Of a stretch of DNA of 59,978 bases, positions 18,630-59,978 are shown in pieces (the first letter of the stretch is position 1; every line of letters begins with the position of its first letter). The DNA comes from a virus. The stretch covers positions 1-59,978 of the IMG/VR virus record IMGVR_UViG_3300034101_003213; one strand, 5' to 3'. Under the pieces are notes generated by a model that worked only from the letters and a program-made list of their open reading frames with translations, did no database searches and was not told the origin of the DNA. The position numbers and the translations under genes are program-made.

Positions 18630-20078
18630 TTAGGCTACTGGAATGTATTGGCAGTTACCGTGTAGATTCTTAACTTGTGTCAAACGGTAGTATTGGTTTA
18701 GACCCTTTGTGAGGTTTTCACCGTCTGGTACTGGACCGTTTGCAGCAGTTACGTTAAGAACATATGGGTTTGCTACAACACCGTAGCGAGTCTTGAATCC
18801 AATACGTGGTTGGAACGTATTTGGATCTACTGCACGGACCATTTGTAGCGGTACGTATGGGCAGTAGAAGAGACCAGCATCGTATGGTGATTCTCCCTTA
18901 TATCCAACACAGAAGAAGTTAACTCCTGATGGTGAATATGGATCAATGTATACACGAATCTTGCCATTTAGGATACCTGCAAAGGTTGATTGTGTATCAT
19001 CAGCATTGATTTGAGGAGCGATTCCTGGGCTTAGGCTCATAAATCCAGACATTGCTAGAGCAGCAGCGGTATCGCTATCGCAGATGATAAAGTTACCCTT
19101 ACCACGACGAGTTTCCTTAGCGATTGCATTGCATTCTCTTTCAATTTGGAAAGTAAGACCACGGAAACGTTCAGCAGACCAACGACCATCTGAATCTGTG
19201 TTTAGATCATAAACACCCTTAGCGTCAAGGTCTCCTTGTTGTGAACCATCACGTGAAACATAGTAAACTGTCTTTACTAGTTCGCGGTTGATTTCAGCAA
19301 GAATTTCTGTGCTGAGGAGGTTAGCAAGTTCAGCTTCAGCGTCTAGACCGTGAACAGCCTTGAGGTCTTGAGCCAATTCAATTGTGTAGTTGCTAGATAG
19401 AGCGCGTGTACGAGCTTGTACGGCAACACGGTCAATTGAGAAGGCCATTTGGTTAAATGCACTGTAAGGATTACCAACACCAGCACCACCAAGGTTTTCA
19501 CCGCTGCTGGTCAACATTCCACGGAATTGTGAGAATTGAGCAGCGCTGAGTTGGCTCTTGATGAGGATTGGATTAGAGTTAGTATATCCAAAGGCGCAAA
19601 GACCATAACCAGCGGTAAAGCCCTTGAAGTCTGCTCCTAGTGTGTAACCAGAGCCACCGTATGCGGCTTGTGGTTCTTGGAACATGGCTTCGGCATAACT
19701 ACCTGTGGATGTATAGTTTTGACCAGCGTAATTTGCACGCATGGCAAAAATCAATCCTGTTGGGGCTGTCATTGGTTGAACGCCGCAGATATCGTATGCC
19801 ATTAGGTTTGGCATTGCACGACGAACAAGGCTGATTAGAACTGGATCATAACCTGCGACCCCACCGTTGTTGGAGAAGCTGGTTGGCATTCCGAGGTTGT
19901 TTGAGGTCATATCCTCTGTGAGGTGTTGTGCTCTAAGTGCTTGTTCTTGGTTTTCTAGAAGAACGGCTGTTACCTTTTTACGATAGTCGTCTTCGATTGA
20001 TGGAAGAGCATCATGGCTGAGAACTGGATTCCACTTCTCAGTTAAGATGTCATATGGTGTGTTTTCTTGAAAGTTCAT
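18630..20078 (-). CDS. 23: gp23-like major capsid protein
   Basis: 482 aa (T4 521 aa). VRRAMPNLMAYDICGVQPMTAPTG and GLIFAMRANY near residues 85-118 are diagnostic of gp23. The C-terminal FKTRYGVVANPY is also conserved. The first 60-odd residues should be removed by the gp21 protease; candidate sites are LTE|D and LLE|N. A strong AGGAG precedes the ATG, a late-type CCTAAATA is 28 nt upstream and a terminator follows directly. Confidence 0.97.
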   Translation of the reverse strand: MNFQENTPYDILTEKWNPVLSHDALPSIEDDYRKKVTAVLLENQEQALRAQHLTEDMTSNNLGMPTSFSNNGGVAGYDPVLISLVRRAMPNLMAYDICGVQPMTAPTGLIFAMRANYAGQNYTSTGSYAEAMFQEPQAAYGGSGYTLGADFKGFTAGYGLCAFGYTNSNPILIKSQLSAAQFSQFRGMLTSSGENLGGAGVGNPYSAFNQMAFSIDRVAVQARTRALSSNYTIELAQDLKAVHGLDAEAELANLLSTEILAEINRELVKTVYYVSRDGSQQGDLDAKGVYDLNTDSDGRWSAERFRGLTFQIERECNAIAKETRRGKGNFIICDSDTAAALAMSGFMSLSPGIAPQINADDTQSTFAGILNGKIRVYIDPYSPSGVNFFCVGYKGESPYDAGLFYCPYVPLQMVRAVDPNTFQPRIGFKTRYGVVANPYVLNVTAANGPVPDGENLTKGLNQYYRLTQVKNLHGNCQYIPVA

Positions 20079-20125: not shown

Positions 20126-21181
20126 TTATAGTTTCTTGTTAAGTTTTCCGATAACATTTACGTAAGACTCAACAGTGTTGTTTTCGGGTTTTGCCACTGG
20201 TGAGAATGTCATTTCTTCATTAATTTGTTGAGGTACTGAACGAGCAGCACGAACAACAGATTGTGAAGAATTTAGATAATTTTCTTTAATGGTTACTAGT
20301 TTTTCTCTATATTCTTTTGGAGTTGTAAAAGCAACATTTTCCATTAGAGATTGGAGTTTAGCAACTTGAGTATCTGCTAAATCTTTGGTTTCAGCAACAA
20401 AGATACCAGCACACTCTGTCAAAGACATTTCTTTACGAAGATTAATATTTTCATTCAATGCTTTGTTGAGTGTATCGGTAAGTTCAACGTTGTGTGAATA
20501 CAATTCATCCAAAGCGTTGTACTTCTCGGCTGGAACATCAATGTAGTGATTTTCAAAAAGATTCTTGAGACCTGTGATGAAGTTTTCAGCAATTTGTGTT
20601 TTGATGCCTTGTTCAACTGCAACAGCATTTTCTTGCATCCATTCTTCAACAACATAGTCTAGATAATCATCAACTTTTTCTACCAAATTGCCTGTTACAT
20701 TTTCAAGATAGTTTTTAACACCTTCATCCAAAGAAACAATAGTCTTTGAAATTTCAGAGTTAACTTTTTCTTGTACTGCAGCTTCAAAAATGGCTTCAAG
20801 TTGAGTTACAAGAGTTGAATCGGCAACCTCTTCACCAAGAAGTTCGATCAAAGCGTTAGTAAACTTTGTTGTTGCTTCACTAGTTTCGACGGGCCCCTCT
20901 TCTTCTTCCTCTTCTTCTTCCTCTTCTACTGGTTCCTCTGGCTCATTTTGTGTTGGAGCAGGAGCAGACATTGGAGCACCACCCATTGGACCACCCATAC
21001 CACCAGCCATAGCAGCCATTGTAGTTGGGACTTGTGCCTTTGCGTAGTTGTTAGCAGTTACAATAGGCATTGGAGTCATATTACCACGACCATCTGGAGT
21101 GAAAGCAACTCCATTGGCAGGCATAGCCATTCCCATACCTTGTTCCATTTGTTCGTTTATTGTGTTTTTTGTTCTTTTCAT
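20126..21181 (-). CDS. 22: gp22-like prohead scaffolding core protein
   Basis: 351 aa, highly acidic, with a run of about ten Glu near residue 85 and long helices in the C-terminal two thirds, as in T4 gp22. Position between gp21 and gp23 supports this. The N-terminus reads MKRTKNTINEQ, where INE|Q could be a protease site like the MLKEQLIAE|A start of T4 gp22. It is destroyed by gp21 during maturation. An exact TATAAATA and AAGGAT lie upstream. The Gly/Met/Pro-rich segment at 14-75 is unusual. Confidence 0.9.
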   Translation of the reverse strand: MKRTKNTINEQMEQGMGMAMPANGVAFTPDGRGNMTPMPIVTANNYAKAQVPTTMAAMAGGMGGPMGGAPMSAPAPTQNEPEEPVEEEEEEEEEEGPVETSEATTKFTNALIELLGEEVADSTLVTQLEAIFEAAVQEKVNSEISKTIVSLDEGVKNYLENVTGNLVEKVDDYLDYVVEEWMQENAVAVEQGIKTQIAENFITGLKNLFENHYIDVPAEKYNALDELYSHNVELTDTLNKALNENINLRKEMSLTECAGIFVAETKDLADTQVAKLQSLMENVAFTTPKEYREKLVTIKENYLNSSQSVVRAARSVPQQINEEMTFSPVAKPENNTVESYVNVIGKLNKKL

Positions 21182-21203: not shown

Positions 21204-21992
21204 TTATTTATAAATTCCTAATTGCTTACCTTTTTGTAAAAATCCACCTGCGGTTTCTGCATATGGAGCAGTGTCTGTATAAGATCTTCTTATCGTATCC
21301 GCAGCATTTTCTGCGCCAAATGATTTTAATGAAAGTGTCAGTGGGTTTTCACCAGCCATAGCCAAACGACTTAATCGTGTTGCTTGATATTTTCCTATTG
21401 GTCCCATTCTACCAGATGCAAATAAATTTGGTTCAAAGCCTAAATTAGCAGGATCGAGAACTTTACCAGCCATATTTTTTAATTCATTATAATAATTTTT
21501 TACAGCATCTGGAACTTCTATGTTATATGATGCTAATTCTTTTTCAAACATACCACCTATTCCTGCTATAGGGTCTACATCTGCGCCCAAATATGCTTTT
21601 GCTAGAGTAGTACGTAGTGCTTGTTTTACTGCGTATTCTACTGGTTTTCCAGCAACATCTACGACTTTTGCCACACCGCTTCCAGCTTTTTCCAATCCTT
21701 GTCCTGCAGCGGCTAACAATCCTTGACCACCACCTATGGTTTGTAAACCTCTATTAAGAAAAGAAGATCCACCCCTTAAAGCATCAGAAACCAATCCAGC
21801 AGTCATACCTTCTAACATTTTTTCAACAGTTTGGGCATAGTTCCACCAAGTTAATTGTTGATATGGATCTGCTCCTACAGGAATGTTTGATTGACTTGCT
21901 TTTTTATCAACCTTCATACCCATACCAGAACCTTTGCCCTCAGACAAAAATCCTTTAATTATATTTTGAGTATAGGGATCAAAAGTTTGCAT
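21204..21992 (-). CDS. Extra head-operon protein between gp21 and gp22
   Basis: 262 aa from the ATG at 21992 (TGATG junction with gp21); the longer frame starts with TTG. No T4 counterpart sits here. The N-terminus MQTFDPYTQNIIKGFLSE|G contains an LSE|G site at residues 16-19, which fits the T4 prohead protease rule (I/L)xE|(A/G). The rest is Gly/Ala-rich and helical, with a GQGLLAAAGQGLEKAGSGVAK stretch. I infer an internal head or core protein processed by gp21. Function unknown. Confidence 0.6.
   Translation of the reverse strand: MQTFDPYTQNIIKGFLSEGKGSGMGMKVDKKASQSNIPVGADPYQQLTWWNYAQTVEKMLEGMTAGLVSDALRGGSSFLNRGLQTIGGGQGLLAAAGQGLEKAGSGVAKVVDVAGKPVEYAVKQALRTTLAKAYLGADVDPIAGIGGMFEKELASYNIEVPDAVKNYYNELKNMAGKVLDPANLGFEPNLFASGRMGPIGKYQATRLSRLAMAGENPLTLSLKSFGAENAADTIRRSYTDTAPYAETAGGFLQKGKQLGIYK
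21205..21212 (-). promoter_or_regulatory. Late promoter TATAAATA (gp22)
   Basis: Exact late motif overlapping the end of the upstream gene, 23 nt before the gp22 ATG. It allows gp22 and gp23 to be transcribed separately from the long morphogenetic operon. Confidence 0.75.
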
Positions 21993-22636
21993 CAAATATC
22001 CTTAAAGTATTTCTCAAAAACCTTGACAATGTTTTTTTGTAAGTTTCTTTTTGAAGATGTTTGAATTACTTTTTTGGCTCTTGACAATTCTCTTTCTTGC
22101 CAGATACCACTTTCATAAATCCATTCTCTTCCTTCCATAATTCCATTTACAAATGCATTTGGTGCCGAAGGATCTGCAACAATATCAATTGCAGCAAGCA
22201 TGAAGTCTTCTTGTACTTCTTGATAACCATTTTTGGCTTTTAAAGAGCCCATTCCACGGGTTGAAACTCCAAGTTGAGCACCCTCTTCAATAAGATTTTT
22301 TACAATCCTTCCCATTGGGGTGTCCATTACTTTGGCTTTACCATAAACATTTTTTCCATCTTCATATAGTTCTTTAACGATATGTGAAACACGATCAAGA
22401 TTAACAGTTGGACCCGTTGGATGGTTTAATTCGCCTAAAGCACGACCTTTATTTACATACTCGTTAATGTATCTATTGGCTTCTTTAGCAAGAATATTTT
22501 TTGGATAAATTCTTCCGTTTTTATTTTTTACGTCGGATTGCATAAAAACGCCTTCAATGAAGTAGTTCTTATCTCCATTGCCAACGTTTTCTTTTACGTA
22601 TTTGATATCTTCTGTTAGTTCTGTGATTAGTTTCAT
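21992..22636 (-). CDS. 21: gp21-like prohead core protease
   Basis: 214 aa (T4 212 aa). The ATG at 22636 is preceded by AAGGA; a longer frame overlaps the upstream gene. GELNHPTG gives the catalytic His72 and LGVSTRGMGSL the catalytic Ser125, matching T4 H85/S140 in order and context. KNKNGRIYPKNI is another family block. It cleaves scaffold, capsid precursors and internal proteins at (I/L)xE sites before packaging. Confidence 0.95.
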   Translation of the reverse strand: MKLITELTEDIKYVKENVGNGDKNYFIEGVFMQSDVKNKNGRIYPKNILAKEANRYINEYVNKGRALGELNHPTGPTVNLDRVSHIVKELYEDGKNVYGKAKVMDTPMGRIVKNLIEEGAQLGVSTRGMGSLKAKNGYQEVQEDFMLAAIDIVADPSAPNAFVNGIMEGREWIYESGIWQERELSRAKKVIQTSSKRNLQKNIVKVFEKYFKDI

Positions 22637-22647
22637 TGATTGTTTCC

Positions 22648-23238
22648 TTAAACGGGTTGTTCTAACCATCTTTTTGGAAGTGGTTGACCATTATCTTCTC
22701 TTTGTCTGAATTCTTTCCACGATGGGAATCTAGTTGGGGAACTTCTTTCATCTTGTCTTCCACGTCTTTCGCGCCAACGTCTTTCACGATCCCACTGCTG
22801 CATCATCTCAATAAATTGCCTATAATACTCTTCCAACCATTTTGACCATTCTTCTCGACTATCAAAATCTTCCTTTTTTTTATGATATTTTTTAACAAAT
22901 TCTTCAAGAGTCATTCCTTGTTCACCATTGGGCCCAGTTGGAATTGGAGGAGCACCTTCACCTTGGTTTGCATTTGGTGACATTGGGGGTAATCCAAGTC
23001 CACCATCGGCTTGCATAGCATTTTCAGCCCCAACAACAGCAGTTGTATCACCCATTGCTATCGCTGGAGCTGATTCTTTTAAACCATTATCTCCAAATAA
23101 TCCTTTTGCAGTAGTTTTATATGCATCTTTTAATTTACTAGAAATTTTTTCATATAAAGCGTTTTGGGTGGATTGCTTAAAACCAATAGCATTCTCCTCC
23201 ACTACACTTTTTATCATTAGTTTAATATTATTATTCAT
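22648..23238 (-). CDS. Prohead core protein (gp67/68-like)
   Basis: 196 aa. The N-terminal helix has IGFKQSTQNALYEKISSKL, which resembles the AFKxxxxxALxxKLxEAL helix of the next gene and of T4-type core proteins. A flexible Gly/Pro-rich middle is followed by a charged region full of Trp, Arg and Glu (REEWSKWLEEYYRQFIEMM). Position between portal and protease fits T4 gp67/gp68. It overlaps gp21's long frame but not its true start. Confidence 0.65.
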   Translation of the reverse strand: MNNNIKLMIKSVVEENAIGFKQSTQNALYEKISSKLKDAYKTTAKGLFGDNGLKESAPAIAMGDTTAVVGAENAMQADGGLGLPPMSPNANQGEGAPPIPTGPNGEQGMTLEEFVKKYHKKKEDFDSREEWSKWLEEYYRQFIEMMQQWDRERRWRERRGRQDERSSPTRFPSWKEFRQREDNGQPLPKRWLEQPV

Positions 23239-23660: not shown

Positions 23661-25228
23661 TGTTGTCCTTCTGGCGCTGCTTGCTGTTGTGCCATGGCTT
23701 GTTGTTGTGCCATCAACATCATCTGTTCTTGACGCATTCTTTCTCTATCAACTTCCATTTGCTTATCAAGTTCTTTTATTTCATTTTCAGTTTGTCGTAA
23801 AATTTTAGATTTTATGTAATCAGTTGAGAAATATTTCCCAACATAAGGTTCAACAATAGAAAGCATTTTAATTCTTTCAGACAATATTTCAGCCTCTTTA
23901 AGATCCCAGAAATAGTTATCCGTATTGTATACAAATTTAATATCTTTCTTTAAAACATTCCAATCTTCTTCAGTTATAACACCCTTGAGCAACAATTGCA
24001 CACGTAAAAAGTCTACAAACAACTTAGCAAAATGGTGTCTCAATCTATCAATAAATTTATAAAACTTAACTTCTTCTCTAGTAATTTCCAAAGATCGGCC
24101 CATGTTAAATCCAGTTTGCTCTGCAACCAAACGACTCAATGGGACATTTAAAGAGTTATATAATTTCTTTTTAAAGTAATCAACGTCCTCAATTTGAGAC
24201 ATAGCGTTGCCACCAGGCAAAACAGAAATCTGTGTTCCCTGAGATCCCTCTCGTCTTGGGAGCCAATAATCTTCAAGAACTGAAAGGTGATTTCTTTCGT
24301 CTCTTATCTCTCCAGTAGATTGATTGTAGATGATTCGATTGCGGAATCGACTCATCATATCTCTTAAATATTGTTCTGCTTTTTGTTTTGGTAGTTGACC
24401 AACATCGACATAAAACACTCTTCTCTCGGGTGCACGTGCTACACGGTAAACTAGAAGAGCATCTTCTAGTTGTCTAAGCATGTTTAAAGGTCGAATGGCC
24501 TTATGCAGATACCCCAAAACCCGCTTTGTGTTCATGTCAATCAATCCCGATGGAACATAAACAACGCTATCTAATGAAAGTTGAAGACCTGCAGGACCCG
24601 TCATTAAAAATGATTCTTTATCAGAATCAGTGTACATATAATATTCTTCAATTTCTTTTATTAAACTGACAGAACCACTTTTTGTTCTTTCTTGTTCTTT
24701 TTTAACTTTACGAACCTTTTTAATTTTTAATGGATCAATTGGTATAATTTCTTTAATACCATCGATAGGATTATCTTTATCAATTACAATATTATAAAAA
24801 AGACGCGAATCGATATACCATCTTCTAAAAATTTCATAGCCCTTGTGGTTAAAATCTAAAAGATGCAAGATGTTATCAAATTCTCTATAAATTTTTACTT
24901 TAATTGAATCTGGTATTGATAAATTTTTAAGATCCAATTTTATTGGGTTTACATCAGATCCCTTTACAATTGCAGCATTTATAATTTCTTCAATTGCATT
25001 GTCTACTTCAGGGTAGACAGACATGTTTCTGTATTGTATTACAGCACTGCTCTCGTCCTTTAGTGTTCCTGTATAATCTATAGCAGAACTAAAATAGCCA
25101 CCAGCCTCGACAGTAACGGTTCCGTCAAATGTCTCGGGTGCGGCTATTTTTTTCAATGCGATATCTTGAACTTCTTGTTTAGTTTTTTCTTTCTTTCCAA
25201 ATTCGAATCCAAATACTTCTATTTCCAT
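23657..25228 (-). CDS. 20: gp20-like portal vertex protein
   Basis: 523 aa (T4 524 aa). Diagnostic blocks: VYPEVDNAIEEIINAAIV, IPIDPLKIKKVRKVKKE, ALLVYRVARAPERRVFYVDV and LPGGNAMSQIEDVDYFKKKL. The dodecamer is the prohead initiator, DNA entry channel and terminase dock. The C-terminus is Gln-rich (QQQAMAQQQAAPEGQQ), a likely disordered tail. It starts 30 nt downstream of the gp19 gene. Confidence 0.97.
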   Translation of the reverse strand: MEIEVFGFEFGKKEKTKQEVQDIALKKIAAPETFDGTVTVEAGGYFSSAIDYTGTLKDESSAVIQYRNMSVYPEVDNAIEEIINAAIVKGSDVNPIKLDLKNLSIPDSIKVKIYREFDNILHLLDFNHKGYEIFRRWYIDSRLFYNIVIDKDNPIDGIKEIIPIDPLKIKKVRKVKKEQERTKSGSVSLIKEIEEYYMYTDSDKESFLMTGPAGLQLSLDSVVYVPSGLIDMNTKRVLGYLHKAIRPLNMLRQLEDALLVYRVARAPERRVFYVDVGQLPKQKAEQYLRDMMSRFRNRIIYNQSTGEIRDERNHLSVLEDYWLPRREGSQGTQISVLPGGNAMSQIEDVDYFKKKLYNSLNVPLSRLVAEQTGFNMGRSLEITREEVKFYKFIDRLRHHFAKLFVDFLRVQLLLKGVITEEDWNVLKKDIKFVYNTDNYFWDLKEAEILSERIKMLSIVEPYVGKYFSTDYIKSKILRQTENEIKELDKQMEVDRERMRQEQMMLMAQQQAMAQQQAAPEGQQ

Positions 25229-51336: not shown

Positions 51337-52125
51337 ATGCCTCTAAAATCTTTTAAAACATTTTTAATCGAACAGCAAGAAACAATTAAGTGTGATGTCA
51401 ACAACATTTGCACTGTTATCCGAGGGTATGAATCTTCTGGAAAAGTTTCAGAAAAAATTCAAAGTCCATATAAAGATAGCAAAGGACTTCTTACAATTGG
51501 TCATGGTCATTTAATTACACCAGAATCTGAATCAATATTTTCTGAAGTATTTCCAGAAGAGCAAAAGAGAAATCCAGATTTTGCTAAACAAATTTTATCT
51601 GGTCAAACAAAAATGACACCAGAACAAGTTGAAAGATTATTTGAAAGAGATGTTAAAGTTCGTTTACCAAAAGTAAAACAAATTGCCCCGGAATTTGAAA
51701 CTTATTCACCAGAACTACAAGCTGAACTTACTTCAGAGTATTTTAGAGGGATGGTTGGCAAATCACCAACTGCGATGAAACTTTTAAGAGCAGGTGACTT
51801 TGAAGGTGCTGCAACAGAGTTTTTAAATGCCGAAGATTATAGAAAATCAGTACAAGAAAAAACTGGAATCTCTGGTAGGATGAGAAATCTTGCCGATGCA
51901 ATGCGTAGAGAAGGTCAACTTAGAAAAGCACCGGAAGAAACTAAACCAGTTGAAGAACCTGAAACCACACAAACATCAACTGAAAAAGAATATGAAGTAA
52001 AACCCGGTGATACCGTTTGGAAAATAGGCGGTGGAGCATCTGGTGTTGAAAAAATTAAACAACTAAATCCTGGCTTAGACCCAAATAAGATAAAGCCCGG
52101 TCAAAAAATTAAAGTTCCAAATTAA
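51337..52125 (+). CDS. T4-lysozyme-family (GH24) protein with C-terminal LysM and head-targeting-like N-terminus
   Basis: 262 aa from the ATG at 51337 (AGGA upstream); the longer frame runs back through the divergent gene. GYESSG holds the catalytic Glu32. YKDSKGLLTIGHGHL gives D47 and T53, spaced exactly as T4 D20/T26. The last 45 residues (YEVKPGDTVWKIG to KIKPGQKIKVP) form a LysM peptidoglycan-binding domain. There is no signal peptide. The N-terminus MPLKSFKTFLIE|Q resembles the T4 capsid targeting sequence MKTYQEFIAE|A. Confidence 0.82.
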   Translation: MPLKSFKTFLIEQQETIKCDVNNICTVIRGYESSGKVSEKIQSPYKDSKGLLTIGHGHLITPESESIFSEVFPEEQKRNPDFAKQILSGQTKMTPEQVERLFERDVKVRLPKVKQIAPEFETYSPELQAELTSEYFRGMVGKSPTAMKLLRAGDFEGAATEFLNAEDYRKSVQEKTGISGRMRNLADAMRREGQLRKAPEETKPVEEPETTQTSTEKEYEVKPGDTVWKIGGGASGVEKIKQLNPGLDPNKIKPGQKIKVPN

Positions 52126-52162
52126 AAAGGAACTAACTTATATTATCTTAAATAAAAATAAT

Positions 52163-52750
52163 TTAAACTTTTAGTTCAAATTTATAAGATGGCATACCAT
52201 CGATTTCATAATCTGATATTGTATAAAATTGTAAAATTTTTGGTTTTAATGTGTTTTCGAAGAAATAAGGTCCAGTTGGTATTTCTGTTGTAGAATCATA
52301 ATCATGGGGCCAGATTTCACAATTTATTTCTTCAATTTTATATTTTAAAAAATCAATTGAATTTATTAGAGAATAATCATACCCCTCACAGTCAATTGAT
52401 AATTTTTTTATATTATTAATGTTATATTTACTACATAACTCATCAAAAGTTATAGTATCAATATTTTTAATATTATTTGATTTTATAAAATGATTTCTGT
52501 TAATAAATGAGTTATTAACAGAACTTGGATAAATTATAAATTTTTTTATTTTTTTATCATGAACTATACCCAAATTTAAAAAATGTATATCATGAATATT
52601 TTTTAATTCTTTATAGCATTCAATTAACTCTTTGAACGCATCTTCATCTGGCTCAATTAAAATAATTTTACTCTTTTTTTCAAGAGCACACATTTCTTTA
52701 AAAAAACAATCATTTCCTACATTTGAACCAAATTGAATGTAAACATCCAT
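52163..52750 (-). CDS. FkbM-family methyltransferase (stand-alone)
   Basis: 195 aa. VYIQFGSNVGND is SAM motif I; ILIEPDEDAFKEL the acidic loop; LSIDCEGYDYSLINSIDF is the FkbM signature, followed by IEEINCEIWPHDYD. It is distinct from the FkbM gene in the glycan cassette and has its own CATAAATA late site 5 nt before the ATG. A late-expressed FkbM could decorate a virion glycan. Confidence 0.8.
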   Translation of the reverse strand: MDVYIQFGSNVGNDCFFKEMCALEKKSKIILIEPDEDAFKELIECYKELKNIHDIHFLNLGIVHDKKIKKFIIYPSSVNNSFINRNHFIKSNNIKNIDTITFDELCSKYNINNIKKLSIDCEGYDYSLINSIDFLKYKIEEINCEIWPHDYDSTTEIPTGPYFFENTLKPKILQFYTISDYEIDGMPSYKFELKV

Positions 52751-52755
52751 TCAAA

Positions 52756-52763
52756 TATTTATG
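52756..52763 (-). promoter_or_regulatory. Late promoter CATAAATA (FkbM gene)
   Basis: Minus-strand late motif 5 nt before the ATG at 52750. Confidence 0.68.
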
Positions 52764-52764
52764 C

Positions 52765-53331
52765 TTAAAACGGAACAGGTTCGTAAAGCATGTTGTATGG
52801 GTCTTTAGCAGTGAACCATTCTGGTTCTTCACTATACTGCCATTTAGCGAATCTAGTCTTCTCGCCCAGATAATACTTTCTATAAGCAACAACTGCATCA
52901 CCATCTTTGTATTCATCGGGCATGGCTTGTGCAAATGGTGTAAGAGTATTAGTTTTGTTGATATTTTTTGGTGGATTATAAAGACCATCCATCAACATCT
53001 TTTCCATTACATGAACTTTACCATAACGCCGAGTATATTCTTTGCACAAAGCATGAGCATGCTTCCACAGCCAAAGATAATTTTTACGACTGGCCCGAGT
53101 CCAAATAGTACAAGGATGATTGATCATAGTGCAACGGCAGATGTTTGTATTGCCATTACTGTAAGTCTTGTATTCTTTCTTCTTACCTTTGGTCATAACT
53201 ACATCACCGTCAAGAACATGGTGAGTAGTTGAGAGCAACTGGCAAGATTCAAGAATCATTTTAACCACATGCTTGTCACACATCATGCGAGCAGCGGTAG
53301 CAGCATCATTATCCAAAACAAAAATATTCAT
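52765..53331 (-). CDS. Conserved phage protein, MNIFVLDND type
   Basis: 188 aa. The N-terminus MNIFVLDNDAATAARMMCDK, then HVVKMILESCQLLSTTHH is a pattern seen in many marine phages and bacteria without an assigned function. WTRASRKNYLWLWKHAHALC and YGKVHVMEKM follow. His, Cys and Asp are plentiful, so metal binding is possible. It overlaps the GMP reductase stop by ATGA and should be co-expressed with it. Confidence 0.7.
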   Translation of the reverse strand: MNIFVLDNDAATAARMMCDKHVVKMILESCQLLSTTHHVLDGDVVMTKGKKKEYKTYSNGNTNICRCTMINHPCTIWTRASRKNYLWLWKHAHALCKEYTRRYGKVHVMEKMLMDGLYNPPKNINKTNTLTPFAQAMPDEYKDGDAVVAYRKYYLGEKTRFAKWQYSEEPEWFTAKDPYNMLYEPVPF

Positions 53332-54362
53332 ATTTCGTTGTTTTCAAAAATATTGTTGATTGTGCGATTAACTTGTATCAACATACCACGCGAATAAAGG
53401 TCAGGCAAATTAAAAGCGCCAACATAAGAGCAAGCTGACCTAATACCACCAAAAATTTCTTGTATCGTATTTCGTACAGATCCACGGTAAGGCACCTCCA
53501 CAGTACGTCCCTCTGAAGCACGATAATCTGAAAGTCCACCGTTGTATTTTTCATTTGCAGTTCTGCTGCTCATTCCATAATGCAACATTGTAAGCTCTCC
53601 GTGCTCTTTGTGTCTAATTTCTCCACCACACTCATCATGGCCCGTTAACATTCCACCCGCCATAACAAATGCAGCACCAGCAACATATGCTTTTGCAAAG
53701 TCACCGGGATAGGTTATTCCACCATCAGCAACGATCCCAATACCGCATGCTTCGGCTGTTGCTACACACTCTATAACCGCCGATAGTTGTGGATAACCCA
53801 CGCCTGCCACTCGCCGGGTCAGACACATCGACCCCGATCCTATTCCCACCTTTACCAAATCTACTCCAGCATTTGACAATGCCTCTACCCCCGTTGGGGT
53901 CACGATATTCCCTGCAATCAATATTGACTTCGGCCATTTTTCTCTTACCTTTCTTGTAAAATTGTGAAACTCTGTCATGTAACCATTTGCCACATCAAGA
54001 CAAATGAAAGTCGGGTCATGAATCTCGGAGGTATCAACGAACAGTTTGCTGTCGGAATCCAATCCAAGTGTCAGAGAAACATATTGTTCTTTGTCTGGGT
54101 GCATATTCACAAAAGCAGAATAATAATTTCCACCCTTTCGAAGGCATGTTACGACTCCATATTCCGAAAGAACCTCTGCCATCTTGTGAGTCCCAACCGT
54201 TGACATGTTTGCTGCCATGATTGGAATGCCCTTCCATTTCGATCCACATTTAAATGTGGTCTCCACTTCAAGACTTACATCTTTGCGAGACTTAACATCC
54301 GAGAGGGTCGGCATGATAAGCACATCGGAATAATCCAATTTGGGTTCAGTGTTCAAAATCAT
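53328..54362 (-). CDS. guaC: GMP reductase (IMPDH/GMPR family)
   Basis: 344 aa from the ATG at 54362; an in-frame TTG at 54383 is unlikely. VKVGIGSGSMC puts the catalytic Cys at 180. LTRRVAGVGYPQLSAVIEC and GIVADGGITYPGDFAKAYVA, then GAAFVMAGGMLTGHDECGG are GMPR-like, and there is no CBS domain. It would convert GMP to IMP (NADPH), redirecting guanine nucleotides. IMP dehydrogenase activity is the alternative. Confidence 0.85.
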   Translation of the reverse strand: MILNTEPKLDYSDVLIMPTLSDVKSRKDVSLEVETTFKCGSKWKGIPIMAANMSTVGTHKMAEVLSEYGVVTCLRKGGNYYSAFVNMHPDKEQYVSLTLGLDSDSKLFVDTSEIHDPTFICLDVANGYMTEFHNFTRKVREKWPKSILIAGNIVTPTGVEALSNAGVDLVKVGIGSGSMCLTRRVAGVGYPQLSAVIECVATAEACGIGIVADGGITYPGDFAKAYVAGAAFVMAGGMLTGHDECGGEIRHKEHGELTMLHYGMSSRTANEKYNGGLSDYRASEGRTVEVPYRGSVRNTIQEIFGGIRSACSYVGAFNLPDLYSRGMLIQVNRTINNIFENNEI

Positions 54363-54369
54363 TTTAAAA

Positions 54370-54397
54370 AGAATATCATACAAACATTGTTAGTCAA
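54370..54397 (-). promoter_or_regulatory. sigma70-like promoter (GMP reductase)
   Basis: TTGACT, 16-bp spacer, TATTCT, ending 7 nt before the ATG at 54362, which would make the message leaderless. Confidence 0.55.
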
Positions 54398-54400
54398 CAA

Positions 54401-54574
54401 TCACTTTGAGTTTTCAATTCTTTGAATTGCATCACGAAGATTTAACATCTTTTTTGCAAGATCTTTAGAGGTCATCTTTCCTCGCAAATAATCTTCATAA
54501 TTAGAAATAATTATCTTGGCTTCTCTAAAGAGAACCGCATACATGTGAGGAACATCGTCTTTTTCTTCTTCCAT
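54401..54574 (-). CDS. Small helical hypothetical protein (57 aa)
   Basis: 57 aa, from the ATG at 54574. Acidic start MEEEKDDVPHMY, then two helices (REAKIIISNYEDYLRG and TSKDLAKKMLNLRDAIQRIE). An out-of-frame ATG overlaps 4 nt upstream. An AATAAATA late-type motif lies 6 nt before the ATG. Codon usage fits its neighbours. Not recognised. Confidence 0.68.
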   Translation of the reverse strand: MEEEKDDVPHMYAVLFREAKIIISNYEDYLRGKMTSKDLAKKMLNLRDAIQRIENSK

Positions 54575-54580
54575 CCATGA

Positions 54581-54588
54581 TATTTATT
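54581..54588 (-). promoter_or_regulatory. Late-type promoter AATAAATA (57-aa gene)
   Basis: Minus-strand motif 6 nt before the ATG at 54574; one of the N-variant late sites. Confidence 0.5.
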
Positions 54589-55159
54589 GCAATTCTGTTG
54601 TGTCATCTCTAATAAATCTTTTTATATTTGGAATATAAACTGAAGACCAGTCTTGTTTTGTAACATCCCACAATAAAATTCTTTTTCCACCAAAAAAACC
54701 AAACGCCTTTTGTCTGGTTTCATATTGACTAGAGGGGATTACTGATTTTTTTAAAGTTCCAAACATCTGTGCAGCGTTTCCATCTACTTTAAAATATTGT
54801 ATCGTAGATACACCATCTATGACCTCCATAAACAATTCTGGACTTGAAATGAAGTTAGTTTTCAAATATTCTTCTTTAGTTACAATTTCTACTTCCATAT
54901 CATAATCATTCAATGGGTCATAAATTCTTTCTTCCTCTAACTGAGGATTAAATTTATAAAAATTTTCTAAGGACCCATATTTCAATTTAATATATTCTTC
55001 AAAATTATCATCTTCACTTGCAAGTTTTTTATACTTTTCTTTTTTAAATTCAGAAGTCATGTAATCTTTTGGTAGCCCAAGATATGACCTATAATTTAAA
55101 TCTGTATTCAAAAATACATTTAACAAATCCATCTGGAATTGTTCTTCAGGGTTTTCCAT
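54584..55159 (-). CDS. Conserved hypothetical phage protein
   Basis: 191 aa, not recognised. The N-terminal half is helical and acidic (LNYRSYLGLPKDYMTSEFKK, YGSLENFYKFNPQ). The C-terminal half is beta-rich (IQYFKVDGNAAQMFG, RQKAFGFFGGKRILLWDVTK). It overlaps the 80-aa gene upstream by 1 nt. The order with two short genes suggests a small late operon expressed from 55598. Confidence 0.58.
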   Translation of the reverse strand: MENPEEQFQMDLLNVFLNTDLNYRSYLGLPKDYMTSEFKKEKYKKLASEDDNFEEYIKLKYGSLENFYKFNPQLEEERIYDPLNDYDMEVEIVTKEEYLKTNFISSPELFMEVIDGVSTIQYFKVDGNAAQMFGTLKKSVIPSSQYETRQKAFGFFGGKRILLWDVTKQDWSSVYIPNIKRFIRDDTTELQ

Positions 55160-55401
55160 TAAAAGGATATACGGAAAATATCATTTTTGATTTCCGCTTC
55201 TTTGTAATTTTCTTTTTTTGATCTGAGCATTTCCCAAAATTTTACATAATACCTTGAAGGCATTTGTAAAATTATTTCATGAAATGGAAGTTTTTTATAT
55301 TCTTTAATTTTGATGAATAAATTTTCTATAGAATCTTTTAAAAAATCTTCTTCTTTATCCAATAGAATAACAACATTTTTTAAAGTTTCTTTAATTTGCA
55401 T
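55159..55401 (-). CDS. Small helical hypothetical protein (80 aa)
   Basis: 80 aa, not recognised. Mostly helical and charged (LLDKEEDFLKDSIENLFIKI, RSKKENYKEAEIKND). It is joined by single-base TAATG overlaps to the genes on both sides, so it is part of the same translational unit. No enzymatic motif is visible. Confidence 0.55.
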   Translation of the reverse strand: MQIKETLKNVVILLDKEEDFLKDSIENLFIKIKEYKKLPFHEIILQMPSRYYVKFWEMLRSKKENYKEAEIKNDIFRISF

Positions 55402-55592
55402 TAGAAAGATCTCGGTGTTGGTCTAAACCCACTTATAAGTTGATTTCTTGGATCTTGTCTTGGTGTTACTTGTGGTGGAGTTACAGCAATATTTTCTCTA
55501 AATTTTAATGCAGCATCGGAAAGTGGAGATGGAACATTCTTATATTTTTGTTGCAAAAGTTTAATTGTGTCTTCTAAAGATTTTTTCTGCAT
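55401..55592 (-). CDS. Small hypothetical protein with Pro/Arg tail (63 aa)
   Basis: 63 aa from the ATG at 55592, which is 5 nt after a TATAAATA; the longer frame overlaps the divergent promoter. N-terminal helix QKKSLEDTIKLLQQKYKNVP, then SDAALKFRENIAV and a TPRQDPRNQLISGFRPTPRS tail. It is the first gene of a three-gene late operon. Confidence 0.6.
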   Translation of the reverse strand: MQKKSLEDTIKLLQQKYKNVPSPLSDAALKFRENIAVTPPQVTPRQDPRNQLISGFRPTPRSF

Positions 55593-55597
55593 GCAAA

Positions 55598-55605
55598 TAT
55601 TTATA
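55598..55605 (-). promoter_or_regulatory. Late promoter TATAAATA (minus half of palindrome)
   Basis: With the plus site it forms the perfect 12-bp palindrome TATTTATAAATA (55598-55609). It is 5 nt from the minus ATG at 55592. Confidence 0.85.
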
Positions 55606-55609
55606 AATA
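55602..55609 (+). promoter_or_regulatory. Late promoter TATAAATA (plus half of palindrome)
   Basis: Shares four bases with the minus site and is likewise 5 nt from its ATG at 55615, so the two genes are arranged symmetrically. Confidence 0.85.
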
Positions 55610-55614
55610 ATTTC

Positions 55615-56580
55615 ATGGATTACCTAACAAACTATTACAAGAATCTTTGCGAGCAACTTCAAGAAAAAATTAATCTTTTAGAGGCAAAAGCCAAAAAGAA
55701 GAAGAAGGCTAAGAAAGATTATGATGGAGATGGTAAAGTTGAATCATCCACCGATGAATGGAAAGGTTCAAGAGACCGAGCCATTAAGCAAGCAATGAGT
55801 GAAGCCAAGATCAACAGACCAACTCACACTATTATCGGTGACGTTTTTCGATCAGACGAACAACAAGACAGACGCATTAGAAACAGAACACAAGTAATGT
55901 CAGATCTTCATGCTCTTAGATCTTTTGAGGGTGCCAGTGATGAAGAACGGACTGCAGCAGAAAAAGTTTTAAAAGACATGGAAACAACTGACACCAACAC
56001 AGGAGCAATTGGAACTGATGCAACCACTCAAGATGTTTTTGCTGCACGCAGAGCCCTAAAAGGATACCAAGGATCGGATGCTTTTAAAGGACATGCAGCA
56101 AAAACTCTTTCCGGATTTGAGGATACCGGAATGTACAATTATACTGTAGGTAGCAACGACATGGATTTTAAAAGAGTTTATAAAAGAACTACCGATGTTG
56201 GTACAGGTTTAGAGGCTTTGGCAAAAGGAATTGACAATACTTGGTATTGGGCAAGATATATGGGAAATCCAGCTGTAAATGATATGACAAGACAAATAGC
56301 AATTGAGATGAATCCCAGTGGTAAATCGTTTCAACAAATAGGAATGCATCCTTCTGGAAAAGCTTTTAGAGGCACAAAGGTTACGCCATTTACATCATCA
56401 ACTGATGAATTCAGAGCCAGACTTGAAAATCCTGCAGTTCAAAAAGAAATTGGCGTTCAAACACCAAGAAGAAGCGAAGCAGGGCAGGCTGAAACAGCAG
56501 CAGAAATAACCAAAAACTTCCCAGCAGATTTTGAATCAACAATTCTTGGTAAATACGTAAAGCCAAGAAAATTAACATAA
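55615..56580 (+). CDS. Putative internal head protein, MDYLTNYYK family (321 aa)
   Basis: 321 aa; the ATG at 55615 is fixed by the late palindrome. The N-terminus MDYLTNYYKNLCEQLQEKIN, followed by LLE|A (residues 21-24), is shared with the 58343 gene and partly the 57157 gene and looks like an extended head-targeting peptide. Next come a KKKKKAKKD block, an EF-hand-like DYDGDGKVES and GSRDRAIKQAM. The rest is polar, with little enzyme character. Internal virion protein is inferred. Confidence 0.65.
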   Translation: MDYLTNYYKNLCEQLQEKINLLEAKAKKKKKAKKDYDGDGKVESSTDEWKGSRDRAIKQAMSEAKINRPTHTIIGDVFRSDEQQDRRIRNRTQVMSDLHALRSFEGASDEERTAAEKVLKDMETTDTNTGAIGTDATTQDVFAARRALKGYQGSDAFKGHAAKTLSGFEDTGMYNYTVGSNDMDFKRVYKRTTDVGTGLEALAKGIDNTWYWARYMGNPAVNDMTRQIAIEMNPSGKSFQQIGMHPSGKAFRGTKVTPFTSSTDEFRARLENPAVQKEIGVQTPRRSEAGQAETAAEITKNFPADFESTILGKYVKPRKLT

Positions 56581-56601
56581 AAATTTAATACAAGACAAAA
56601 G

Positions 56602-56633
56602 AAAAACCCAGACCTCAAAAGTCTGGGTTTTTT
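56602..56633. terminator. Bidirectional terminator
   Basis: AAAAACCCAGAC, a short loop, GTCTGGGTTTTTT; a 12-bp-class stem with U and A runs, between the 55615 gene and the convergent small membrane gene. Confidence 0.88.
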
Positions 56634-56652
56634 CGTTTTTGTACGGAGCCTT

Positions 56653-56823
56653 TTATTTGGCTTCTACGGCCTTGGGAGCCTCATGCTCACCACGGGGTCC
56701 CTTGTGTCCGGGACGCTTTCCATGAGCGCTAAAAGCGACTACAAGGGCTGCTACTGCGACACCAAAGAGAACCCATTCAATAATTGTGACTTTAGATAAC
56801 AAATTTTTAATTTTTGTGAGCAT
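56653..56823 (-). CDS. Small membrane protein with basic tail (56 aa)
   Basis: 56 aa. One transmembrane segment at about 15-32 (IEWVLFGVAVAALVVAF) follows a short amphipathic start MLTKIKNLLSK. The tail HGKRPGHKGPRGEHEAPKAV is basic and Pro/Gly-rich. AAGGA precedes the ATG. Size and topology resemble phage inner-membrane proteins (holin- or spanin-like or host-membrane remodelling), but nothing identifies it. Confidence 0.72.
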   Translation of the reverse strand: MLTKIKNLLSKVTIIEWVLFGVAVAALVVAFSAHGKRPGHKGPRGEHEAPKAVEAK

Positions 56824-56844
56824 AAGTTTCCTTTTTAATATTTA

Positions 56845-56852
56845 GATAAATA
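56845..56852 (+). promoter_or_regulatory. Late promoter GATAAATA (97-aa gene)
   Basis: Plus-strand late motif 8 nt before the ATG at 56861. Confidence 0.65.
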
Positions 56853-56860
56853 GTAATACC

Positions 56861-57154
56861 ATGAAGAAATTTATTGAATTTTTAAAAGAACAAGAAAATA
56901 AAGTTTCTACTTCAGAAATTAAAGAAGTGGATGTTGTTCCAACAGCACAAGAATCAGAACAAAAAAATGAAAAGAATTGGAATAAGGTAGTAAAAGAATT
57001 CAAAAAGAATGTGAAAGAACCATCATACTCGGCCACTAAAAAATTTATTCAAGGTGATAAAAAATCTTCAGAAGGTGCAATAGAATTGGATCTCACACCA
57101 AAGCCAAAGATTGAGGCACCATTGCCTCAACCTGAGACACCATCTACAACTTAA
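56861..57154 (+). CDS. Putative internal head protein (97 aa, T4 CTS-like start)
   Basis: 97 aa. The N-terminus MKKFIEFLKE|Q closely parallels the T4 internal-protein capsid targeting sequence MKTYQEFIAE|A in length, spacing and the final E at residue 10. The remainder is hydrophilic and basic-acidic (NKVVKEFKKNVKEPSYSATK), like small DNA-associated T4 internal proteins. I infer encapsidation, processing by gp21 and ejection with the DNA. Confidence 0.65.
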   Translation: MKKFIEFLKEQENKVSTSEIKEVDVVPTAQESEQKNEKNWNKVVKEFKKNVKEPSYSATKKFIQGDKKSSEGAIELDLTPKPKIEAPLPQPETPSTT

Positions 57155-57156
57155 TT

Positions 57157-58290
57157 TTACTTAAGTTTTCCGCGCTTCATCAATTCGGCTTTGGCAGCAC
57201 GATATTCGACTGATTGTTTCTCATCAGGAATAGCGGGACCAAACATATTGCTTCTCTTGTTACGGAACATCATTTCTTCTAATTCTTTATCAGTGTGCAA
57301 TCTGGCTTGACCGTGGCCCTTTTTCTTCCAGAATTCAGAGAAGTCTTCACCTGCTGGAACTGGTGCTTTGGCTGGGGCTGGGGCTGGTGGCTTTCTGAAT
57401 GAAGGATTTACAACACTGGATCTTGGATTTACAACATCTGCAACAGGTGGTCTGAGTGTATCTTTGGCAACAGGCATAACTTGATTCATAACTTTATTTC
57501 TGTTTGGATCGATGCTTATGTCTGAAGAAGCTACTGGAGCACCAATATCTGGGTTGGAAGTTGCAAGTGAGGTATTTGTTGGTGTATATTGGCCACTTGG
57601 TGGTGTTGCAAACAGTGAAGTTGGAATCCATGCTGGTGGTGGAACTTGTGATGTTGCTGGAGCACCTGTTTGAATTCTAACTGGAGAAGGGGCCATTGGT
57701 GAAGCTGCTGGAGCAGATGCTTGTGCTGATGGAGCATATTTTCCCATTCCCATGGCTCTTTGTTCCAAATCTTTACGGGCTTCGGGGGTATTTGCACTTG
57801 GTCTGACTGCACTCAAAGAAGGAGCATTTCCACCCAAAGTTCCGGGACTAAATGTTTGACGAGCAACGCTTCCGGGCATGCTCATTGTTCTGGAAATCAT
57901 GTCTTGGTCAGCACTCGTTCTTGGTTGGGCTCTTGCTGGTGCTTCTGAATAGTTTGGTTCATAGACGCTTTGAACATACCCACCTTGACCTTTTTTATAA
58001 TTTCCACCTGCTTCTGCGGCTCTAGCGGCAAATTCTACAGGATCCATTGCTGGTTTAAAGTTAACATTCCCTGTTTTCATAGTATAATCAGGTTCATAAA
58101 CACTTTGTAAATAACCGCTACCTGAATCTTTCTTATACTCACCACCTGCTTCGGCAGCATATGCAGAAAATTCCAAAGGATCCATTCGTTTTGCTCGCTC
58201 AATCAAATAATTTAACTTCTGTTCTAAAATGAATGCTTTTTCAGAAAGTTCTTCGGATTTTTGTTTATAGAATTTGGTGATGTAGTCCAT
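57157..58290 (-). CDS. Putative internal head protein with internal duplication (377 aa)
   Basis: 377 aa. The start MDYITKFYKQKSEELSEKAF, then ILE|Q at 21-24, is a diverged version of the MxYLTxYYK peptide. Residues about 36-112 hold two copies of a unit: DPxEFxAxAAEAGGxYKK then QSVYEPxY. The rest is Pro/Ser/Ala-rich (APAPAKAPVPAG) and largely disordered. A perfect TATAAATA 5 nt upstream marks late expression. Convergent with the 56861 gene with a 2-nt gap. Confidence 0.62.
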   Translation of the reverse strand: MDYITKFYKQKSEELSEKAFILEQKLNYLIERAKRMDPLEFSAYAAEAGGEYKKDSGSGYLQSVYEPDYTMKTGNVNFKPAMDPVEFAARAAEAGGNYKKGQGGYVQSVYEPNYSEAPARAQPRTSADQDMISRTMSMPGSVARQTFSPGTLGGNAPSLSAVRPSANTPEARKDLEQRAMGMGKYAPSAQASAPAASPMAPSPVRIQTGAPATSQVPPPAWIPTSLFATPPSGQYTPTNTSLATSNPDIGAPVASSDISIDPNRNKVMNQVMPVAKDTLRPPVADVVNPRSSVVNPSFRKPPAPAPAKAPVPAGEDFSEFWKKKGHGQARLHTDKELEEMMFRNKRSNMFGPAIPDEKQSVEYRAAKAELMKRGKLK

Positions 58291-58295
58291 GTAGT

Positions 58296-58303
58296 TATTT
58301 ATA
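58296..58303 (-). promoter_or_regulatory. Late promoter TATAAATA (57157 gene)
   Basis: Exact minus-strand late motif 5 nt before the ATG at 58290. Confidence 0.8.
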
Positions 58304-58329
58304 TTGAGATTTTTTTGAAATTTTTTGTT

Positions 58330-58337
58330 GATAAATA
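58330..58337 (+). promoter_or_regulatory. Late promoter GATAAATA (58343 gene)
   Basis: Plus-strand late motif 5 nt before the ATG at 58343, in the same GATAAATATTTTTATG context as gp13 and gp48. Confidence 0.78.
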
Positions 58338-58342
58338 TTTTT

Positions 58343-59101
58343 ATGAACTATTTGACCCAATACTACAAAGACCTCTGTGAGCAACTTGAAAAGAAAATAA
58401 ATTTTTTGGAGGCTCTTGATCCAAAATTGCAAGCACAACTTGCCGAACTTGATCGCAGAAAAAAAGAACGAGAAAACAATCCAAAATTGAAAGCACAGTT
58501 GGATGCGGCCTTTGCTGAGAAGAACAGAAAAGAAGAGGCACCCTATAACATTCCCAACATGCCAAACTTGTCAGCCAACATAGAATTTTCAAGTCAGAGC
58601 CGTGCAAGGTCTGGATCTGGCATTCCAACCCCAACAAGTGAACTTGATGCCTTCACCACATTGGGCGCAGATAAGCAAGGAAGAATTGCTTCAGGTCTTT
58701 CTACCTCCACACTCAAGGGAATGCAACAAGCCCAATATGACAGATCAAAAGGAATTCTCGGTGGAAGATCAATTTCTCCTGTAAACCCTGCATTGAATAG
58801 AAATAGCGTAGCAACACAAAATTTAATATCAAAAACTTTGGATGACAGAAAAGGACCTCTCGGTGGAAGAGCAGGGGCACAATCATATGTGGATACATTA
58901 AACCGAACAGGTGATACCAAATCTCTCTATGGAAAAAGTTATGATGAACTAAAAGCAATGAGAGATGAATTGGATCAACAAATCCGTGCTGGATTCAAAT
59001 CAGGAAATAAAACAATAGATCCTACAAAAAGAAGAACTCTAATGGATTTGAATACTGCAATAGATACATCTTTAAAATCAAAAATTAAAAGAAATTTTTA
59101 A
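58343..59101 (+). CDS. Putative internal head protein, MNYLTQYYK family (252 aa)
   Basis: 252 aa from the ATG at 58343. MNYLTQYYKDLCEQLEKKIN then FLE|A (21-24) is almost identical in pattern to the 55615 protein, while the rest differs. A repeated DPKLxAQL/NPKLKAQLD unit at 26-55 and two ILGGR/PLGGR motifs follow. Polar, charged and without enzyme motifs. A terminator follows. Confidence 0.62.
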   Translation: MNYLTQYYKDLCEQLEKKINFLEALDPKLQAQLAELDRRKKERENNPKLKAQLDAAFAEKNRKEEAPYNIPNMPNLSANIEFSSQSRARSGSGIPTPTSELDAFTTLGADKQGRIASGLSTSTLKGMQQAQYDRSKGILGGRSISPVNPALNRNSVATQNLISKTLDDRKGPLGGRAGAQSYVDTLNRTGDTKSLYGKSYDELKAMRDELDQQIRAGFKSGNKTIDPTKRRTLMDLNTAIDTSLKSKIKRNF

Positions 59102-59163: not shown

Positions 59164-59395
59164 GACCATCCCATGTAATTTGAAAAAGGGGGTCATGGGG
59201 GGTGGGGGTATTTTTGAAGAAAATTTAAAATTATTAGAGGGGTCGGTGGGCTAGCCGCTCCGATAACCCCCCGGAGTATGGGACCCAAATCACTGTTTGG
59301 ACCGCTGTACCCTTAGCTAAATTAATATTTGAAATTAATAATAAAGCCCCCTGTTCGGGGGCCCAACCTGCCGGTTGTAGTTTGTTATTAGCTCT
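59164..59395. other. Gene-free segment with a GC-rich, hairpin-forming block and probable sequence junction
   Basis: No credible ORF. At 59240-59300 a GC-rich block in AT-rich surroundings can form GGGTC/GACCC (59240-59244 with 59282-59286), CTCCG/CGGAG (59258-59262 with 59272-59276) and CCAAA/TTTGG (59285-59289 with 59296-59300; the first two cannot all coexist with the third). At 59346-59362, GCCCCC-TGTTC-GGGGGC resembles a terminator but lacks a U-run on its right. To its right the composition becomes GC-rich. Confidence 0.5.
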
Positions 59396-59620
59396 TCACA
59401 TTTCCCCCCATCCCGCCGAAGCGAGCCAATCGTTATCGGCATCCCAATCCTCGCGGGTCATCTGCCCGCAGGCATCCGCGAAGGAATCGTTATTCGCATC
59501 GCGTTCATCGATAACGGCGTTCATTTCCTCGGTGCAACTGACGCACATTTCGGTAGCGTCAATCGGGGCCACACGGCCACACGCGCAGCACTCGCCTTCG
59601 TGATGGTTGGGGTTGCTCAT
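59396..59620 (-). CDS. Small CxxC zinc-ribbon-like protein, actinophage-like region
   Basis: 74 aa from the ATG at 59620. CCACGRVAPIDATEMCVSC gives two CxxC pairs, a likely zinc ribbon, followed by an acidic tail (DANNDSFADACG, DWDADNDWLASAG). The DNA is about 58% GC, unlike anything to the left. TTGCAT-N18-TACAAT-N6-ATG marks a leaderless start. It looks like a gene from an actinobacteriophage rather than from the T4-like phage. Confidence 0.65.
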   Translation of the reverse strand: MSNPNHHEGECCACGRVAPIDATEMCVSCTEEMNAVIDERDANNDSFADACGQMTREDWDADNDWLASAGWGEM

Positions 59621-59626
59621 GCGTCC

Positions 59627-59656
59627 ATTGTAGCACACGACTACCCTGGAATGCAA
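59627..59656 (-). promoter_or_regulatory. Promoter TTGCAT-N18-TACAAT (left-going, leaderless)
   Basis: Minus-strand promoter ending 6 nt before the ATG at 59620, mirror image of the one on the other side. Confidence 0.68.
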
Positions 59657-59700
59657 GCGCCTAGCAAACTTTATAATATTCTACGATACGCTTGCATTCC
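59648..59700. repeat. 12-bp inverted repeat spanning both -35 elements
   Basis: GGAATGCAAGCG (59648-59659) and CGCTTGCATTCC (59689-59700), a perfect pair with a 29-nt centre. Each arm contains one -35 (TTGCAT), so a dimeric repressor or activator could control both genes. Confidence 0.8.
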
Positions 59701-59721
59701 TGCCGGTGGCCGTGGTATCAT
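59692..59721 (+). promoter_or_regulatory. Promoter TTGCAT-N18-TATCAT (right-going, leaderless)
   Basis: Plus-strand promoter ending 6 nt before the ATG at 59728, with the same spacer and the same distance as the left-going promoter. Confidence 0.68.
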
Positions 59722-59727
59722 TGGGGC

Positions 59728-59978
59728 ATGACCCCCACCGCCAATCGTTACGAATCCATCCGCGCCACGGCCATCGAAGCCTTCATCGGCCACCTTGCAT
59801 CGGCTACCCTCTTCGACCTGCGCGCTGCCGAGACTTGGTACGCCGAGGCCCGGGAGTTTGCGGAGTCGCTGCGCGGCCATCGGCCCGATTGGTCGCTGGA
59901 AGTTTCGGCCTCTGTCGTGTCGGCCTTCTCGCCCCGTGTGACGTGGGGCCATAATAAGGCTAAGGCCCTACAGTACGC
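59728..59978 (+). CDS. DUF7178-like actinophage protein, 3' end outside window
   Basis: 84 residues are visible. FDLRAAETWYAEAREFAESL and VVSAFSPRVTWGHNKAKAL follow a pattern common in actinobacteriophages (helix with TWY-A-A, then a SP-x-x-x-W-x-x-N turn). The function is unknown in that group. GC content and codon use are unlike the T4-like genes. The reading frame is open to the window edge. Confidence 0.6.
   Translation, partial: MTPTANRYESIRATAIEAFIGHLASATLFDLRAAETWYAEAREFAESLRGHRPDWSLEVSASVVSAFSPRVTWGHNKAKALQY

Follow-up and report, generated by a model that had tools for sequence, protein, structure and literature searches.

Two kinds of N-terminal tag predicted to direct unrelated proteins into the head of an uncultured T4-like bacteriophage

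The DNA analysed here (positions 1 to 59,978 of IMG/VR record IMGVR_UViG_3300034101_003213, referred to below as the window) belongs to a T4-like phage that encodes gp20-23, of which it is a 59,978-bp fragment. Judging by comparative sequence analysis, five of its proteins, named by their leftmost coordinates 51337, 55615, 56861, 57157 and 58343, most likely carry cleavable capsid-targeting propeptides, so that their cargo would be packaged in the head and probably ejected. Two tags coexist in this phage, a T4-type form of 10-12 residues on 51337 and 56861 and a clade-specific form of 23-31 residues on the other three. The reading of both as head-sorting tags, cut by a T4-type protease and borne by otherwise unrelated proteins, is strongly supported, because the long tag stands before 41 cargo families, putative cut sites are enriched at its end, the two tags replace each other on related cargo and the long-tag phages fall in one clade. 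On the same grounds the sorting signal proposed in the original prediction is supported in its core. Its five N-termini with two kinds of signal are confirmed, and for these shuffles and reversed proteins exclude chance.

The three long-tag proteins of the window open with M[DN]Y[LI]Tx[YF]YK. The corresponding codon pattern, ATG-RAY-TAY-HTN-ACN-NNN-TWY-TAY-AAR, was found at exactly three sites of the window (55615 on the plus strand, 58290 on the minus strand and 58343 on the plus strand), with 0 matches in 100 dinucleotide shuffles. In tagged protein 1 (55615..56580, plus strand, 321 aa), a cargo of unknown fold from a seven-member family with the long tag on each member and no significant Pfam or PHROG match, the tag comprises residues 1-23, MDYLTNYYKNLCEQLQEKINLLE↓A (55615..55683, plus strand; the arrow denotes the putative cut), as indicated by the N-terminus, the pattern scan and the cut-site enrichment. 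Inserted between tag and cargo is the AKAKKKKKAKKDYDGDGKVESSTDEWKGSRDRAIKQAMSE module (55684..55803, plus strand), which contains KKDYDGDGKVESS..GSRDRAIKQAMSE and closes with MSE↓A (residue 63), where a further cut might occur. Two relatives (L004:3789 and L162) have the same cargo directly after the tag and a third (L004:3001) has the module; flanked by two putative sites, it may be a middle piece that is removed. This DYDGDGK..ES..GSRDRAIK module, or one similar to it, was also observed in cyanophage and other viral open reading frames (ORFs). In tagged protein 2 (58343..59101, plus strand, 252 aa), the N-terminus and the pattern scan delimit a tag of residues 1-23 ending in INFLE↓A (58343..58411, plus strand). 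Tagged protein 3 (57157..58290, minus strand, 377 aa) carries the tag MDYITKFYK...NYLIE↓R, residues 1-31 (58198..58290, minus strand). A segment resembling its C-terminal RSNMFGPAIPDEKQSxEYRAAKAEL sits soon after the tag in L143/L101. This protein also has two copies of MDP(L/V)EFxAxAAEAGGxYKK, and several members of its family (relatives L092, L101, L104, L144, L149 and L158) have long Gly/Ala-rich stretches with a membrane-inserting appearance.

A single scan of IMG/VR with a pattern covering residues 1-9 of the long tag returned 91 stretches, several with 2-5 copies, and 119 distinct ORFs. When 108 of these long-tag proteins were clustered on the sequence from residue 41 on, they fell into 41 families, of which 22 were singletons. 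The original prediction had proposed to test whether the peptide precedes unrelated domains in other T4-like phages, and these families give a positive answer. The consensus of the long tag is M-D/N-Y-L-T-x-Y-Y-K-N-L-x-E-Q-L-Q..helix..(I/L)xE↓A. Since residues 1-9 are partly forced by the pattern, independent conservation was counted from residue 10 on; it was high at N10 (0.97), E13 (0.89), L15 (0.95), Q16 (0.83) and L22 (0.96) and fell off soon after L22. Between families, codon identity was 0.81 at position 2 and 0.52 at position 3, which argues for conservation of the peptide and not of the DNA. The cargo is highly variable in both length and composition; among it are an endolysin/peptidase-like domain (L155) and a DGDG module. 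In Pfam and PHROG scans, 41 cargo representatives yielded few names.

The end of the long tag is marked by a putative protease site. The motif (I/L/V/M/F)xE(A/G/S) reached 0.0565 per position in residues 21-30 and only 0-0.0025 beyond residue 30. It was present in residues 20-38 of 23.1 families, against 3.8 +/- 1.5 (maximum 9.5) in 1000 shuffles of the same residues, so that this strict motif is about six times commoner in long tags than in shuffles. The shorter (I/L/V/M/F)xE was found within residues 21-38 in 40 of the 41 families, and A follows the Glu at 4.5 times its background frequency. The Glu lies mostly at 23, 27, 28 or 31, suggesting that the long tag is one helix with the cut site at a variable distance. 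The xLE at residue 23 originally assigned to all three window proteins stands for 55615 and 58343, both with LE↓A. In 57157, ILE↓Q23 is not kept in the relatives and the aligned Glu is residue 31, LIE↓R (IDE↓A and LNE↓Q in relatives); a cut after E31 is therefore more likely than one at residue 23. Describing the tag as a 23-residue form was thus too narrow, given sites at E23, E27, E28 and E31, while its proposed novelty agrees with an exact-peptide search of 5.39 million papers, whose coverage leaves out most subscription journals and in which the long tag was nowhere mentioned.

The short tag, MxxFxxFLxE, begins the remaining two proteins and may be assigned to the known T4 capsid-targeting sequence. 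In the lysozyme (51337..52125, plus strand, 262 aa, with LysM; PF00959 and PF01476) it reads MPLKSFKTFLIE↓Q (51337..51372, plus strand), and in the small protein at 56861..57154 (plus strand, 97 aa) it reads MKKFIEFLKE↓Q (56861..56890, plus strand), with MKRFKEFLEE↓Q in the ortholog G020:39810; both were identified from the N-terminus and a short-tag scan. Across 14 related contigs, starts of this type occurred at 38 Met codons and at one in reversed proteins, so the short tag is not a chance pattern. Thirty-six ORFs were kept (34 of the 38 matches plus two close variants) and fell into 24 cargo families, including lysozymes and a methyltransferase. The (I/L)-x-E end is present in all of them by construction of the search. 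Aromatic residues (F/Y) occupy positions 4 and 7 in 34 of the 36 (F4/F7 in 56861), and in the lysozyme they are shifted by two, to F6/F9. In T4 internal protein III, targeting is governed by residues 4 and 7 and processing by residues 8 and 10 (PMC9026906). Applied to T4, this regular expression picks out its MKTYQEFIAE proteins, and it also finds a few proteins in P-SSM2 and S-CREM1.

Within the clade, the lysozyme family has nine members, all with the short tag. Among the cultured relatives of the window lysozyme are lysozyme domains that form part of the virion RNA polymerases in N4-like Vibrio phages; in N4 such a polymerase is encapsidated and ejected, which fits a packaged lysozyme at 51337.

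Q follows the cut in 8 of the 36 short tags, several of these being orthologs. The original suggestion that the protease may also accept Q, as a novelty, does not survive, since the published specificity of T4 gp21 is L/I-x-E with no strict residue after the cut (PMC9026906), which makes the claim of a new specificity unnecessary. Relaxed choice of the residue that follows the Glu was likewise rejected as a new trait: gp23 of this clade has HLxE↓D in 10 of 11 members, whereas gp23 of P-SSM2, S-CREM1 and S-BM3 has A there.

Related cargo may bear either tag. Long-tagged L111 and short-tagged G019:38634 share 39% identity over 148 aa of cargo (E 9e-30), and the cargo of 58343 is related to that of short-tagged G009:42966 (MQSFKQFLLNE↓A; blastp, 33% over 175 aa, E 3e-15). 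Therefore, both tags most likely do the same job, and they are probably equivalent in function, namely capsid targeting followed by gp21 cleavage. A more far-reaching reading, which we consider possible though doubtful, is that the T4 superfamily has in the long tag a second address code, independent of the first and recognised by another component of the core; one phage would then sort two effector pools, comprising dozens of families with roles in anti-defence or takeover, which would differ in position, number or timing.

The machinery required for such processing is encoded in the same phage. The PHROG scan of the window matched PHROG 207, 237, 138 and 213 and revealed, all on the minus strand, a portal (23657-25228), a T4 gp21-type prohead protease (21992..22669, PHROG 207, E 4.3e-82), which is the presumed processing enzyme, a gp22-type scaffold (20126..21181, PHROG 237, E 2.3e-59), the presumed docking partner of the tags, and the gp23 major capsid protein (18630..20078, PHROG 138, E 5.7e-150), whose propeptide probably ends at HLTE55↓D. 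The gene between gp21 and gp22 (21204..21995, minus strand) gave no match in the PHROG scan; its N-terminus, ..NIIKGFLSE↓G, makes it a candidate for a further head-targeted core protein.

From the modularity of the tags, the amphipathic pattern of the long one, the enriched cut site, the co-encoded gp21-23, the tag exchange and the single clade, all observed at sequence level, we infer docking to the core, cleavage, packaging and ejection. Late in infection, the tag, which in its long form would be an N-terminal amphipathic helix, may bind the prohead core, probably through the gp22 scaffold, and so bring the cargo into the prohead. The gp21 protease would then cut after the Glu of the (I/L)-x-E that closes the tag. 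Once released, the cargo would remain in the head with the DNA, and it would probably enter the next host by ejection and act there as an early effector.

With respect to its distribution, all 14 long-tag carriers with gp23 form one clade (support 100/99), which lies inside an uncultured group next to Kyanoviridae; the best gp23 identity to a cultured phage is 54%. Moreover, gp21 at 67-94% identity was present in 11 of 40 carrier fragments. The long tag was absent from nine records at 52-59% gp23 identity (466 kb in total). Most of the records being fragments, nothing can be concluded from a missing tag inside the clade. The idea of the long tag as a general cyanophage feature was dropped: none was found by tblastn with the consensus against 50,697 phage records, by a pattern scan of bacterial genomes or by a profile search of P-SSM2, S-CREM1, S-BM3, B23, T4 and HTVC008M.

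Other explanations of the shared long N-terminus were considered. It might be an oligomerisation or coiled-coil helix that docks on the neck, tail, baseplate or a membrane, with the terminal LxE being coincidental. In this regard, the long tags of 55615 and 58343 are amphipathic (hydrophobic moment 0.54, top 0.5% of shuffles), while the test was not significant for the short tags nor for 57157. AlphaFold2 placed residues 2-38 of the 55615 family in one helix, within a poor model (predicted local distance difference test score of 51.7) that would fit a helical tag and nothing more. Nevertheless, a docking helix of this kind does not account for the enrichment of LxE↓A being confined almost entirely to the point where the conserved helix ends, nor for related cargo bearing the T4-type head tag instead, and we regard it as unlikely.

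Slightly less probable still is that the N-terminus belongs to an exchangeable 5' gene cassette, made up of the late promoter, the translation start and the first codons and favoured by recombination or for the sake of expression, instead of being a protein signal. The original prediction had attributed late promoters to all five genes, and this applies to four of them. The motif NATAAATA starts exactly 13 nt before the ATG of 55615, 57157 and 58343 and 16 nt before that of 56861; no NATAAATA was found within 80 nt of the lysozyme gene 51337. The octamers concerned are TATAAATA at 55602..55609 (plus strand, for 55615) and 58296..58303 (minus strand, for 57157-58290), and the late-promoter-like GATAAATA at 58330..58337 (plus strand, for 58343) and 56845..56852 (plus strand, for 56861). 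A late-promoter octamer lies just upstream of most long-tag genes, which counts in favour of the head-sorting reading. What speaks for a cassette is that, of 29 promoter matches at tag genes of the clade, 24 have ATAAATA exactly at -12 and that similar A/T tracts precede the ATG. The same spacing, however, occurs before about 70 untagged starts, several tag genes lack the promoter, the third codon position varies more than the second between families, as given above, and a cassette does not predict (I/L)xE↓A at the tag end. Elsewhere, the ATAAATA spacing was counted 0 times in T4, 0-1 times in the tested cyanophages and 8 times in Pelagibacter phage HTVC008M.

Octamers at -13 to -6 also head many late operons in related sequences (G005, G009, G011, G014, G017 and G024). 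The TATA box of the T4 late promoter lies about one helical turn upstream of the transcription start (PMC2988020), and transcripts from an octamer at -13 should therefore start on the ATG or right beside it, so that late mRNAs without a leader are predicted for this clade. In addition, a 22-bp divergent gap (55593-55614) separates the ATGs at 55592 (minus strand) and 55615 (plus strand) and contains the palindrome TATTTATAAATA, with a late octamer on each strand. The same gap was observed in G028 (2739/2762), G024 (10799/10822), G009 (40203/40226) and G037 (4478/4501), where it adjoins a conserved small ORF, SLEDTIR..KYKNRPSPL.

Finally, that the carriers are ordinary paralogues, one ancestral protein having been duplicated often with C-termini diverged beyond recognition, is very improbable: true within-genome paralogues do exist among them (G017 27913/28609) and segments are rearranged in the 57157 family, but the cargo differs widely in length and composition (with the L155 domain and a DGDG module), the same cargo occurs with a wholly different tag, and conservation drops soon after L22.

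Several points must be set against the head-sorting reading itself. One long-tag family has no (I/L/V/M/F)xE at all, and the residue after the short-tag cut is often Q, N or E and not A/G. In most carrier fragments gp21 is missing, perhaps for no other reason than their incompleteness. Some of the 41 families could prove to be one through remote homology, and their cargo is mostly unannotated and thus gives no indication for or against an ejected function. It must also be considered that T4-like phages do not usually package a lysozyme of this kind.

At the right end of the window (~59300-59978), GC content climbs to 0.54, from a level of about 0.35, and the ORFs have a foreign look; this end is possibly a chimeric join or acquired DNA, and one of its ORFs had no match among phage records. 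When cultured phages were searched at the DNA level with the 50-60 kb region of the window, nothing was found.

The interest of the long tag is that, being almost invariant and easy to search for, it marks proteins which an environmental T4-like clade probably injects. The three tagged internal proteins of T4 are inhibitors of GmrSD restriction systems (PMC12373910). The long tag points to some 41 families of mostly unknown proteins that could be screened for counter-defence or host takeover, and its sequences form a natural set for mapping the requirements of a capsid-targeting tag.

Among known systems, the closest is the T4 capsid-targeting sequence of internal proteins I-III (MKTYQEFIAE) and Alt, which is cut by gp21; a change of Glu to Asp is reported to block this cut in internal protein III. 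The short tag resembles it in its N-terminal position and its length (about 10 residues), in having aromatic residues at 4 and 7, a hydrophobic one at 8 and Glu at 10, on unrelated cargo and with T4-type gp21, gp22 and gp23 in the same phage. The long tag shares the N-terminal position, the unrelated cargo and the (I/L)xE end. It differs in having no evident sequence similarity (M[DN]YLTNYYKNL..EQLQ has no Glu-ended site near residue 10, and a search of T4 with long-tag profile A1 found nothing), in its 23-31 residues with the cut 13-20 residues further downstream, in the preference for A after the cut, and in its 41 cargo families within one uncultured clade; here, moreover, both kinds of tag coexist in one phage. 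The long tag would thus be a variant of the T4 capsid-targeting kind, not found described, with its cut site well downstream of an invariant start. The head propeptides of giant phages (SPN3US gp53, gp54 and gp47 and the phiKZ inner body) are likewise removed by a gp21-related protease after a short Glu-ended motif, and a head-targeting role has been proposed for them. Those of SPN3US are 111-130 residues long (PMC7411985), whereas the long tag is short by comparison, hardly varies at its start and is common to dozens of cargo types. As regards the lysozyme, its cultured relatives lie in the large encapsidated virion RNA polymerase of N4-like phages (Schitoviridae, e.g., Vibrio phage pVa5), while the window protein is a separate 262-aa polypeptide with LysM and a T4-type tag.

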